Below, in pieces: positions 9,162 through 16,938 of a stretch of DNA of 32,972 nt. Position 1 is the stretch's first letter; every line of letters starts with the position of its first letter. Below the pieces are notes generated by a model. That model was not told the DNA's origin. It did not search any database and was given only the letters and a program-made list of their open reading frames with translations. This DNA comes from Candidatus Kaiserbacteria bacterium RIFCSPLOWO2_12_FULL_50_10 (GTDB taxonomy: Bacteria > Patescibacteriota > Minisyncoccia > Phycocordibacterales > UBA918), in assembly GCA_001783515.1 (NCBI GenBank), contig MFMN01000024.1:1-32972 (forward strand), in the 5' to 3' direction. Made by a program: the position numbers and the translations under genes.

Positions 9162-9698
9162 ATGATGAAAGAAACACTCGCATCTACGTTTGATGCACTT
9201 AAGGGACAGTTTGGCTACACCTCAAAGATGCAGGCACCTCGTATCACGAAGGTTGTCGTATCGATGGGTGTTGGTAAGATTAGCGACAAGGCACGCCTCA
9301 CGTTCATTCGTGGACGCCTCGCAAATATCACCGGTCAAAAGGTTGCTGACCGCAAGGCGAAGAAGTCAGTTGCGTCGTTCAAGGTTCGTGAAGGAGACCT
9401 CTCAGGTTTCCAGGCAACCCTCCGCGGCGACCGCAAGAACGACTTCCTCGACAAGCTCGTGCATGTAGCATTCCCGTCAACACGCGACTTCCGTGGTCTC
9501 AAGACTTCGTCAGTCGACGCGATGGGTAACTACTCAATCGGCATCCCCGAACACACCATCTTCCCTGAATGTCAGGACGATGAAATCAAGGACATTTTCC
9601 CGTTCGCGATTACCATCGTCACGACTGCAAAAACAAAGGAAGAAACCCTAGCCCTCCTCCGCCACATCGGCATGCCACTTCAAAAAGAAGTTGCGTAA
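9162..9698 (+). CDS. rplE: 50S ribosomal protein L5 (uL5), intact copy
   Basis: 178 aa, the normal full length. uL5 binds 5S rRNA and contacts the P-site tRNA. Landmarks are KMQAPRITKVVVSMGVGK, LTFIRGRLANITGQK, KVREGDLSGFQATLRGDR, GNYSIGIPEHTIFPE and the ending LLRHIGMPLQKEVA. It is the last gene of the operon here; rpsN and rpsH, which normally follow, are absent and a palindromic terminator comes next. A second, truncated copy of its 3' half lies at 10771-11139. Confidence 0.97.
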   Translation: MMKETLASTFDALKGQFGYTSKMQAPRITKVVVSMGVGKISDKARLTFIRGRLANITGQKVADRKAKKSVASFKVREGDLSGFQATLRGDRKNDFLDKLVHVAFPSTRDFRGLKTSSVDAMGNYSIGIPEHTIFPECQDDEIKDIFPFAITIVTTAKTKEETLALLRHIGMPLQKEVA

Positions 9699-10770: not shown

Positions 10771-11139
10771 TTCTTCAAGGTTCGTGAAGGAGACCTCTTA
10801 GGTTTCCAGGCAACGCTCCGCGGTGACCGCAAGAACGACTTCCTCGACAAGCTCGTGCATGTAGCATTCCCATCAACTCGCGACTTCCGTGGTCTCAAGA
10901 CTACGTCAGTCGACGCGATGGGTAACTACTCAATCGGTATCCCAGAACATACCATCTTCCCAGAATGTTACGAGGAGGTGAATTGTCACATCGTGACAAG
11001 AGAGACTGCCCTGGGGTATGATGAGATCAAGGATATTTTCCCATTCTCAATCACTATCGTAACAACTGCGAAGAACAAAGCTGAAACCCTAGCCCTCCTC
11101 CGCCACATCGGCATGCCACTTCAGAAAGAAGTTGCGTAA
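10771..11139 (+). pseudogene. Truncated 3' copy of rplE with an internal insertion
   Basis: The frame reads FFKVREGDLLGFQATLRGDR and continues co-linear with the second half of L5 at 9386-9698, ending LLRHIGMPLQKEVA. Nucleotide similarity is high (roughly nine of ten bases by eye), and most differences are synonymous. There is no in-frame ATG; the upstream frame closes at a TAG at 10747. Where intact L5 has FPEC-QD-DEIKD, this copy has 17 residues (YEEVNCHIVTRETALGY), a net gain of 45 bp containing the inverted repeat TTGTCAC-ATC-GTGACAA. Similarity continues about 30 bp past the stop. It cannot encode full L5 alone. Synonymous-type divergence suggests it was coding until recently or came from a relative. 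Confidence 0.85.
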
Positions 11140-11164
11140 CCGTAGTCACGAAGAGTAAAAGGAA

Positions 11165-11198
11165 AAACACCCGAAGCAAGCAATTGCCCCGGGTGTTT
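11165..11198 (+). terminator. Terminator-like hairpin after the rplE fragment
   Basis: AAACACCCG/CGGGTGTTT form a 9-bp stem with a 16-nt loop. It may also end the minus-strand gene at 11217. Confidence 0.65.
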
Positions 11199-11216
11199 AT
11201 AAGTGATGTATCTGAG

Positions 11217-11882
11217 CTATGTTCCTATCGGACGCAGAGGTTTTGAGTGATTTTCTTTTATCTTTCTATCTAACTCCTCCCTGGACTTTTCGAGGTTACA
11301 CTTTTCAATCCTTGACTTCCAAAGATTGTAGAGTGCAATTGTGTTTGAATAATAGTCATGCTCCTTTCTCTTGTCAGATCTCTCAAATGCATAGTAAAGC
11401 CAACGATCTTCAATACTGGTGCAGAAACTATTCCCAGTGCAAGAAAATGCTGTTTCTTCATCGGCTACGCCAGCAATGAATGGAGTAGCAAATACCTCAA
11501 GAATATTTGCCCCATCTAAGTTATAGCGAGATAGAACGTTATGCTCAGTGTGTACATTCACATATTGTTCTCCAGCACGTTTAAGAATATCAGGATATAT
11601 TTTTTCCGATAATTCATTCTTCGTAAACCTAATGAGTCGTACTGGCAATGGTGTTAGTTCAATACCCTTGCTGCTCATGTAATCGTATGATCTTGTTGCC
11701 GCTGGGATATAATCGGTTAAAAAATACTTAGTCATGTCGGATGCCAATTTAACTGAATCTCGTTTGGAATTAAGTTTAAAGATTCGCCAGGTGAAGTATA
11801 TTCCAATGAGGGCAATGAGAGTGGCAATCATTGTGCCGATTTCTGCATATGCTGCAAATTCTTGTAGTGTGGTAGTTCCCAT
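11217..11882 (-). CDS. Uncharacterised membrane-anchored protein
   Basis: 221 aa. A single N-terminal transmembrane helix lies at about residues 14-33 (EIGTMIATLIALIGIYFTWR). The rest is predicted cytosolic, helical and charged, with FAYATPF-like segments absent and EDRWLYYAFERSDKRKEHDY near residue 160. The layout resembles DUF4760-type proteins (one helix plus a ~150-residue helical domain), but I cannot confirm membership. A TATAAT on the minus strand lies about 22 nt upstream of the ATG. AT-rich composition differs from the ribosomal genes nearby. Function unknown. Confidence 0.7.
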   Translation of the reverse strand: MGTTTLQEFAAYAEIGTMIATLIALIGIYFTWRIFKLNSKRDSVKLASDMTKYFLTDYIPAATRSYDYMSSKGIELTPLPVRLIRFTKNELSEKIYPDILKRAGEQYVNVHTEHNVLSRYNLDGANILEVFATPFIAGVADEETAFSCTGNSFCTSIEDRWLYYAFERSDKRKEHDYYSNTIALYNLWKSRIEKCNLEKSREELDRKIKENHSKPLRPIGT

Positions 11883-14480: not shown

Positions 14481-15926
14481 ATGCCTGAAATCTCACCCGA
14501 CACCAAAGAATTCTACACGCCAACACCTTTGCGGTGGTGGGCGTTTGTGCGGCAACTTGCGTATGTGATTGCCATGTTTACGCTCCTGAGTGGCGCACTC
14601 TATTTCGGCTATCGCACCTTTTTCTACACGGCACCAACCTGTTTTGACGGCATGCAAAATGGTGAAGAAGCGGGTGTCGACTGCGATGGCTCCTGTGAAA
14701 AAATATGTATCGCGCAGATTGCACAGCCATCAATCGAATGGGCAAAGGCATTTAAGGTGCAAGACGGGCTCTATCACGCCGTTGCATTAATCGCAAACAC
14801 CAACAGAGTGGCAGGCACCCGCGAGCTCGCGTATACCCTTACTGTGGAAGACGAAGCAGGAGTTATTGCAGAGCGGAAAGGTACCATGACGCTCCCGCCT
14901 GATGGGCAATACCCAATCTTTGAAGGGCGCATTGCGACAGGAGCACGCACACCAACATCGGTGCGCGTGAGCTTTGACCACGCGCTCTCCTACTGGAGCA
15001 TGCTGCCATGGAGCCGCACCGACTACACAGTGCTGAGTCGTACGATTACCGGCGCCGGCTCGATTGCCCCAAAACTCACCGCAAGCATACAGAGTAATCT
15101 CTATACCGAGACAAAAGACCTCCGCGTGGTTGCGGTCGCCTACGACAGCATGCGCACCCCGCTCGTCGCGTCGCAAACCATATTGCCAAGCCTTCCTGCA
15201 CAAGCGAAAACTGATGCAATCTTTACCTGGTCCGCACCAATCGCCGGGACGCTTCGCTCGTGTCAAATTCCGTCCGACCTCGTGCTTATGCTCGACCGTT
15301 CTGGCTCAATGGCAGCCGACGGCGGCACACCGCCTGAGCCGCTCGAAAGCGCAAAAAACTCCGCAGCGACCTTCATAGAAACGCTCAGCGCAATCGACCG
15401 TGCAGCGCTCGTTTCGTATGCGACAACACCAAGTCTTGGCGGGAAACTTACGGCAAACCACGCCGATACTCGTGCCGAGATTATGAACATTGCGCTCGGC
15501 AAAGACGGCGTGCAGTACACCGACCTCGCCGCAGCAATTCGCGAAGCAGCGCGTATCTTGGAAGATGGCAAGAATCCCGATGCGCGTCAAGTCATTGCGC
15601 TTCTCACCGACGGCGATATTACTCGCCCACTCAATCCCGCAGGGAAGCGCGATGTGCCCTATGCAGAGGCGCAGGCTGTCGCCGCAGCCGATGAGGTAAA
15701 ACGCGACGGCATTGCCCTCTACACCATCGGCTTCGGCAAAGTGTACGAAGGCGAGTCGTCAGAAGTTGCCCGCAACCGGCAGCTCATCACCTCACTCGCA
15801 ACCTCACCCGCACACAGTTTCTTCGCACCAACAAGCGCCAATCTCGCCAGCGTCTACAAAGAAATCTCCGAAGGCATTTGCGAAGATGGCCCGGCTATTA
15901 TCGACATTTTCATAGTCCCGCAATAA
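14481..15926 (+). CDS. Membrane-anchored von Willebrand factor A protein
   Basis: 481 aa. An N-terminal transmembrane helix (residues ~25-48, LAYVIAMFTLLSGALYFGY) is followed by a Cys-rich motif CFDGMQNGEEAGVDCDGSC, typical of Patescibacteria surface proteins. A beta-rich middle (residues 80-260) leads to a vWA domain at about 265-470. The MIDAS metal site starts with LMLDRSGSM and continues with the Thr/Asp positions in YTDLAAAI and LLTDGDI. vWA domains bind proteins in a metal-dependent way, so an extracellular adhesion or assembly role is likely. The stop codon lies in the left arm of hairpin E2, so that insertion may have set the C-terminus. Probably co-transcribed with the LOG gene. Confidence 0.85.
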   Translation: MPEISPDTKEFYTPTPLRWWAFVRQLAYVIAMFTLLSGALYFGYRTFFYTAPTCFDGMQNGEEAGVDCDGSCEKICIAQIAQPSIEWAKAFKVQDGLYHAVALIANTNRVAGTRELAYTLTVEDEAGVIAERKGTMTLPPDGQYPIFEGRIATGARTPTSVRVSFDHALSYWSMLPWSRTDYTVLSRTITGAGSIAPKLTASIQSNLYTETKDLRVVAVAYDSMRTPLVASQTILPSLPAQAKTDAIFTWSAPIAGTLRSCQIPSDLVLMLDRSGSMAADGGTPPEPLESAKNSAATFIETLSAIDRAALVSYATTPSLGGKLTANHADTRAEIMNIALGKDGVQYTDLAAAIREAARILEDGKNPDARQVIALLTDGDITRPLNPAGKRDVPYAEAQAVAAADEVKRDGIALYTIGFGKVYEGESSEVARNRQLITSLATSPAHSFFAPTSANLASVYKEISEGICEDGPAIIDIFIVPQ

Positions 15927-16050
15927 CTTCTTCCAAAACGGGTGCACTTGTACAGGCTTCAGTCGCCCGCTCCTCCACGGTATAAAAATACCGCTCCGTC
16001 ACTTACTCCCTCCAGCCAGCACAATTGCATCCCGTTTTGAAAGAAGTTAT
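15923..16050. repeat. Palindromic hairpin repeat E2
   Basis: A 128-bp inverted repeat. The outer arms at 15923-15942 and 16031-16050 match in 19 of 20 positions (ATAACTTCTTCCAAAACGGG). The tip is CGGTAT/ATACCG around AAAA. Between them lie unpaired CTCC-type motifs: GCTTCA, CTCCTCC, CGCTCCG and CTCCAGC, in the same order as in E1. The left arm contains the TAA stop of the vWA gene. There is no T-run. Confidence 0.75.
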
Positions 16051-16102: not shown

Positions 16103-16159
16103 TTGTGAGTTGTTCCTTCGTTCGTTACCTGTCTGTACACTGCAGAAAAAGGAGTTCAC

Positions 16160-16852
16160 ATGCTCGACAAACATGAGATGGCTATCCGTAGCGTTTATTA
16201 CGCTGATATCTTTGGTGGGGAAAAAATTACGAGAAGTCCTTTTCCGGAGCATCTCTGGCCAGTAATGAGTTACCCTGAGAAAATCAAAGGTCTCACTGAC
16301 CGTGGCTTCAAGGATCCTCACAAGATGATTGCTTCGTTCCCCTCGATTCTTGGTTTAGCCCTCGAAAACATCGATGCAAAAATCAAAGGTCTCACTGACC
16401 GTGGCTTCAAGAATCCGAAGGGGATAATTACCAAGCACTCCCCGATTCTTGGTTTTGCCATCGAAAACATCGATGCAAAAATTAGTGGACTCATCGCTCG
16501 CGGCTTCAAGGATCCTCACAAGATGATTGCTTCGTTCCCCCCGATTCTTGGTTTAGCCTTCGAAAACATCGATGCAAAAATCAAAGGTCTCACTGACCGT
16601 GGCTTGAAGGATGTTCAGGAAAAGGTTGTTTTATCACCCCAGATTCTCAGTTACTCCTTCGAAAACATCGATAGAAAAATGAGGCTTTGCCGTAGGCTTG
16701 GCGGGAATTATCAGGACTTTCTTGATTACGGGATAATTTTTGCAGGTATGTCGCCGAAGAATTACATTCCAATTCTTCGGAAATGCAGAGAACTTGAGTT
16801 CAGCCCATCTCCTAAAAATGTCTTCAAGATATACAGGGCGAAAAGTTTTTGA
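16160..16852 (+). CDS. Protein with four tandem mTERF-like repeats
   Basis: 230 aa. After ~40 N-terminal residues come four 33-residue repeats. A typical unit reads KIKGLTDRGFKDPHKMIASF and then PSILGLALENIDA. Units 1 and 3 are nearly identical; units 2 and 4 are diverged, and two degenerate units follow (LGGNYQDFLDYG, LEFSPSPKNVFKI). The pattern L..RGF...(I)...P.IL...ENI..K matches the mTERF helical repeat, which forms a superhelix that binds nucleic acid. mTERF proteins are best known from mitochondria and chloroplasts. AAGGAG lies 5 nt before the ATG. The 99-bp DNA repeats are similar enough to suggest recent internal duplication. A nucleic-acid-binding role is inferred only. Confidence 0.75.
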   Translation: MLDKHEMAIRSVYYADIFGGEKITRSPFPEHLWPVMSYPEKIKGLTDRGFKDPHKMIASFPSILGLALENIDAKIKGLTDRGFKNPKGIITKHSPILGFAIENIDAKISGLIARGFKDPHKMIASFPPILGLAFENIDAKIKGLTDRGLKDVQEKVVLSPQILSYSFENIDRKMRLCRRLGGNYQDFLDYGIIFAGMSPKNYIPILRKCRELEFSPSPKNVFKIYRAKSF

Positions 16853-16884
16853 GTATCGCGCGTCACTCGCGCTCTGCACTACCG

Positions 16885-16913
16885 TACCTCGCGTCGCCGC
16901 GGGGTATTTTTTT
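16885..16913 (+). terminator. Intrinsic terminator after the mTERF-like gene
   Basis: The 9-bp stem TACCTCGCG/CGCGGGGTA has loop TCGC and is followed by TTTTTTT. Confidence 0.88.
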
Positions 16914-16938
16914 GCTATTTGCATTTTGGAATTAGTGG

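Follow-up and report, generated by a model that had tools for sequence, protein, structure and literature searches.

The window, that is, the whole stretch of 32,972 nucleotides analysed here from a Candidatus Kaiserbacteria genome, contains a gene for a tandem-repeat protein that matches the mTERF family and is predicted to adopt the mTERF fold; in this protein and its bacterial relatives, the repeat units are hypervariable at positions corresponding to base-reading residues of human MTERF1. We consider it rather probable (about 0.6) that the protein is a modular mTERF-fold transcriptional regulator that binds double-stranded DNA, with one residue pair per unit, on either side of a proline (x-P-x), setting the specificity. 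N- and C-terminal caps enclose four head-to-tail units of 33 residues (residues 41-172; Table 1), and helices at residues 4-18 and 20-24 are predicted in the N-terminal cap. The C-terminal cap carries the motif GMSPKNYIPI..KCR...PSPKNVFKIY, which is conserved in the closest homologues. From the Shine-Dalgarno-like site and the terminator-like hairpin, the gene looks like a single-gene transcription unit. The genome has a single copy.

Table 1. Positions of the mTERF-fold gene, its parts and its flanking signals in the window
Feature	Position	Strand	Basis or description
mTERF-fold tandem-repeat protein gene	16160..16852	+	open ORF, 230 aa, pI 9.6
Shine-Dalgarno-like AAGGAG (GCAGAAAAAGGAGTTCACATG)	16148..16153	+	sequence; about 6 nt 5' of the ATG
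N-terminal cap, residues 1-40	16160..16279	+	alignment; common to the G016 and G220 homologues
Unit 1 KIKGLTDRGFKDPHKMIASFPSILGLALENIDA	16280..16378	+	99-nt direct repeat
Unit 2 KIKGLTDRGFKNPKGIITKHSPILGFAIENIDA	16379..16477	+	99-nt direct repeat
Unit 3 KISGLIARGFKDPHKMIASFPPILGLAFENIDA	16478..16576	+	99-nt direct repeat
Unit 4 KIKGLTDRGLKDVQEKVVLSPQILSYSFENIDR	16577..16675	+	99-nt direct repeat
C-terminal cap	16676..16849	+	alignment and model; degenerate three-helix mTERF-like unit
Intrinsic-terminator-like hairpin and T-tract, end of transcription unit	16884..16914	+	predicted from sequence

The four tandem units proposed in the first-pass annotation were confirmed by their 99-nt period: at a lag of 33 codons, 52 codon identities were found, far above 5000 codon shuffles (mean 4.7, maximum 15). 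Units 1 and 3 had been described there as nearly identical in DNA. This is true of their second part (16306-16378 versus 16504-16576; 71 of 73 nt identical), which encodes helices 2 and 3, but over the full unit the identity is 88 of 99 nt. At the protein level, the first part of unit 1 matches units 2 and 4, not unit 3, and this mosaic suggests recombination between units. Of the proposed unit pattern, units 1-3 carry ENIDAK unchanged and unit 4 has ENIDRK. Unit 2 has Ser at the expected mTERF proline; the mTERF motif in the window shows P in three of the four units and L24 and I31 in all four.

The Pfam mTERF profile (PF02536) matched the 230-aa protein with 42.3 bits (E=5.7e-11; cut-off 23.1), which bears out the earlier assignment to this family, and mTERF was the sole significant family in a Pfam scan. 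Repetition can inflate profile scores: several short profiles of other families give values of 1e-4 to 1e-6 with single relatives or a few of them. For this reason pieces of the protein were scanned separately. Units 3 and 4 alone scored 24.5 bits, above the cut-off, and thus the score is not merely a product of repetition; units 1 and 2 and units 2 and 3 remained below it (13.4 and 14.8 bits), with no other family matched. A relative with only one unit (L043) scored 24.8 bits, again above the cut-off, and PF02536 was found in 13 of 14 relatives. Furthermore, a profile built from the 14 relatives found MTERF3 (2.5e-7) and MTERF1 (3.8e-4) among PDB sequences. The mTERF motif Pro8/Leu11/hydrophobic 18/Leu25, a pattern taken as in PMC11417379, corresponds to unit positions 21, 24 and 31 and to position 5 of the following unit, and it is kept over the relatives (P in 83, L in 79, I in 74 and L in 80 of 90). 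Matches of short profiles such as APP_amyloid, HTH_39 and MazG-like in other relatives look like repeat artefacts inflated by repetition, and matches of PF02536 below the cut-off to RuvA-like, ABC-transporter and transposase-like proteins were judged by eye, from their sequences, to be false positives.

The AlphaFold model of the protein, made with its relatives included, has a mean pLDDT of 86.8 and a pTM of 0.76, with regular helices of about 13, 7 and 5 residues in every unit. In a Foldseek search of the PDB, the first 20 matches were all of the mTERF family (best E 8.3e-5, probability 1.00) and included MTERF1, also in its DNA-bound form, MTERF3, MTERF4 and mitoribosomal mTERF proteins; the TM-score to the query was 0.52-0.60 for MTERF1 and MTERF3. 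A relative with seven units (L028) gave the same picture with better scores and superposed on DNA-bound MTERF1 with TM 0.58/0.59 over 298 columns. The mTERF fold proposed earlier is supported by these matches, and neither outcome named in the first-pass annotation as a refutation was observed, the handedness of the superhelix being judged through these fold matches alone. No match to the model was found in the BFVD library of viral structures. Helical repeat proteins often bind proteins, and many of the units have small residues at positions 20 and 22, the residue after the proline being mostly Ala, Ser or Thr; the protein could thus be a structural repeat protein whose mTERF-like helices bind protein or surface ligands instead of nucleic acid. 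We regard this as very unlikely, since the proteins of the family are basic (pI 9.1-9.7 in seven of eight), all significant structure matches are to the mTERF family and the Pfam scan of the window protein showed no extra surface or secretion domain.

The distribution of variation among units fits DNA reading. In the 11 proteins with similar units, positions 20 and 22, which flank the conserved Pro21, were the most variable within proteins: position 20 varies in all 11 and position 22 in nine, and together they show 31 of 154 amino-acid states and zero extra synonymous codons. In close unit pairs, the ratio of nonsynonymous to synonymous differences was 78:2 at position 20 and 82:1 at position 22, versus 2:31 at Pro21. 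The permutation p for this variability was at its floor of 5e-5, and a weaker effect (p 0.007 for positions 20 and 22) was seen in four more divergent proteins, both values being indicative because units and pairs are not independent and the proteins are related. Positions 26 and 33 were the next most variable, and the top four positions were unchanged in every leave-one-out.

The mapping of these positions to MTERF1 was made after the variability had been seen, and it rests on independent data. The MTERF1 numbering was fixed by the PDB chains of the mutants R162A, F243A and triple RFY (in 3mvb, the chain index is the residue number minus 53). MTERF1 R202, F243 and R350 fall at Pro+1 (position 22), R162 at Pro-2 (position 19) and R251 at position 30. 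F243 is among the residues mutated in base-flipping studies, and the mutant structures appear among the PDB fold matches. In MTERF1, direct base contacts are made by R162, R202, R251, R350 and R387, and the motif prolines line the DNA major groove (PMC4705650). By this mapping, the position used by MTERF1 for base reading is a variable one in the bacterial units.

In the mechanism that we propose, each 33-residue unit would be one three-helix mTERF motif, and stacked units would form a superhelix wrapping double-stranded DNA along its major groove. The proline of the unit (position 21) would face the groove, residues 20 and 22 would read bases, and the conserved Lys15 and the basic surface would hold the DNA backbone. 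Duplication, loss or recombinational swap of units could then change the target sequence and the length of the site. Once bound to its site, the protein would regulate transcription in a sequence-specific way; the simplest mode would be a roadblock for RNA polymerase, as with MTERF1. Several observations count against this reading. The Pro+1 readers of MTERF1 are arginines, and Ala, Ser or Thr at this position would make fewer base contacts; the variation at positions 26 and 33 needs another reason; unit 2 of the window protein is without Pro21; and neither a target site for the window protein nor a neighbour gene conserved across the relatives' loci, except between two Magasanikbacteria, was found.

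In organelles, RNA and rRNA are ligands of mTERF proteins too, which likewise counts against DNA as the ligand here. One alternative is that the bacterial protein binds RNA and aids intron splicing or ribosome assembly, as plant mTERFs and MTERF4 do; the fold matches include MTERF4-NSUN4 and the mitoribosomal mTERF proteins, and a maize chloroplast mTERF protein is reported to act in group II intron splicing (PMC4005652). However, a link to group II introns was rejected, since RF00029 was absent from the own genome and from the 48 family genomes searched, and a gene present in a few percent of genomes is unlikely to encode a core ribosome factor. Near-identical units that vary at the base-reading positions of MTERF1 fit DNA reading better, and double-stranded DNA is the ligand of the bacterial relatives described so far (PMC11417379). 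Binding to RNA thus appears improbable to us.

A search for relatives in other CPR genomes, suggested in the first-pass annotation, revealed a sporadic branch. PF02536 was above the cut-off in 4 of 49 family, 6 of 397 order, 3 of 384 class and 2 of 380 phylum genomes (these samples overlap, and the own genome is included). When genome and viral contigs were scanned with one protein alone, no relatives came up; they were found with an alignment (A1). In the alignment scan of named genomes, 17 loci were detected, 14 of them under Patescibacteria names (Kaiserbacteria, Magasanikbacteria, Roizmanbacteria, Shapirobacteria, Peregrinibacteria, Moraniibacteriota and others), two in bins named 'uncultured bacterium' and one in an alphaproteobacterial MAG. 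In the order of this alphaproteobacterium, one of 200 genomes matched, the MAG itself, below the cut-off. Relatives have as few as 1 and as many as 10 or more units, and several of their genes end at contig ends, as repeats would lead one to expect. The C-terminal cap is also present in the closest homologues, which are those of G016 and G220 and the truncated one of G042. Besides its tandem-type protein, the genome G220 encodes another mTERF-like protein, which is divergent and lacks near-identical units (L014, 1255-2505; 39 bits with PF02536). Another homologue (L067, 9380-10126, in G024) is frameshifted near its first unit, by an assembly error or in a decaying gene.

Three virus-classed IMG/VR contigs also have relatives, besides one record that apparently matches the alphaproteobacterial MAG locus; a scan of viral contigs with a second Patescibacteria alignment gave no match. 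In one of the three (L045), a NusG-like transcription antiterminator (11043-11684), a ParB/methyltransferase and a replication initiator are encoded near the mTERF-fold gene. Upstream of the window gene, a genome of the same genus (G005) has the lysine-decarboxylase-like and vWA genes in the same order and then diverges at the position of the mTERF gene, where there may have been an insertion or rearrangement. These viral contigs and the synteny break, the very patchy distribution and a diversification of units as in an arms race could point to a selfish or phage-linked mobile regulator, one that controls a mobile element or excludes competitors, with a fast-changing target specificity. However, when the Patescibacteria loci were inspected by eye, neither an integrase nor a phage gene could be recognised close to the mTERF genes, several neighbours of which look like housekeeping genes, and tblastn against 50,697 phage and 72,556 plasmid records gave no match; a regulator of this kind seems unlikely.

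The first-pass annotation held that a bacterial mTERF-like protein would be unusual. Such proteins are indeed rare, but a precedent exists: pTERFs, bacterial tandem mTERF-like proteins found mainly in Bacillota, were published in 2024 (Hu et al., NAR, PMC11417379). The window protein, with four units in a Patescibacteria-related genome, falls under their definition as prokaryotic tandem mTERF motifs. Both groups come from bacterial metagenome-assembled genomes, carry tandem three-helix mTERF motifs and an mTERF annotation, and vary in unit number (3-11 in pTERF). pTERF1 binds ACTNNNAGTC with a Kd of 1.87 nM, and pTERF2 binds a different motif. By its published description, pTERF1 is without the canonical Pro8/Leu11/18/25 pattern, unlike the present proteins, which keep it. 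In the available text a base-reading position is not assigned for pTERF, whereas we propose positions 20 and 22 for the present family. Human MTERF1 (3mva, 3n6s), the best fold match, shares the 33-residue three-helix motifs, the motif proline and the superhelix, and its base-reading residues are those to which the variable residues of the bacterial units map; in contrast to these near-identical units, mitochondrial MTERF1 has divergent units and reads mostly G via Arg.

The repeats of TALE, BAT and STAR proteins are also tandem units of 33-35 residues with two hypervariable residues each. The likeness to the present units is one of working principle only, in unit length and the two hypervariable residues; the fold differs, as no TALE structure was among the PDB matches of the window model or of the seven-unit relative, and the TALE repeat fold was not encountered. 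It is possible that a natural modular DNA code arose on the mTERF fold independently of TALE, with residues 20 and 22 setting the base preference and retargeting by unit duplication or recombination, but we hold this idea tentatively and lean against it.

Beyond the pTERF paper, the present results add a sporadic branch across Patescibacteria and alphaproteobacterial virus-classed contigs in which the canonical mTERF motif is kept, as well as hypervariable residues 20 and 22 flanking the proline with almost no synonymous change. A search of the available literature found no paper naming mTERF together with Patescibacteria. The 2024 paper makes the finding less novel, whereas the location of the hypervariable residues makes it more so. 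Organelle gene expression is partly run by mTERF proteins, whose choice of sites is in general not settled, and the divergent units of the organelle proteins would hide any code. Near-identical units varying mainly at base-reading positions make this question directly testable. Bacterial mTERF units also bear on the origin of mTERF, and a programmable DNA binder might be developed from them.

Two further elements were observed in the window. At 15923-16050, upstream of the gene, lies an element of about 128 nt whose terminal inverted repeats, each 20 nt long, are 95% complementary. It folds far better than shuffled sequences (z -6.75) and is matched at 22 places in the genome, of which about ten are near full length at 69-83% identity. 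It has no Rfam match and may be MITE/REP-like or a structured RNA. It was considered as a target of the protein, but we propose no such link, since it occurs in G005 without the gene and is unmatched in the mTERF-bearing genomes G016, G024 and G042. At 10855-11139, there is a partial second C-terminus of ribosomal protein L5, 78% identical to the full gene (9162-9698) and with a 15-residue insertion.
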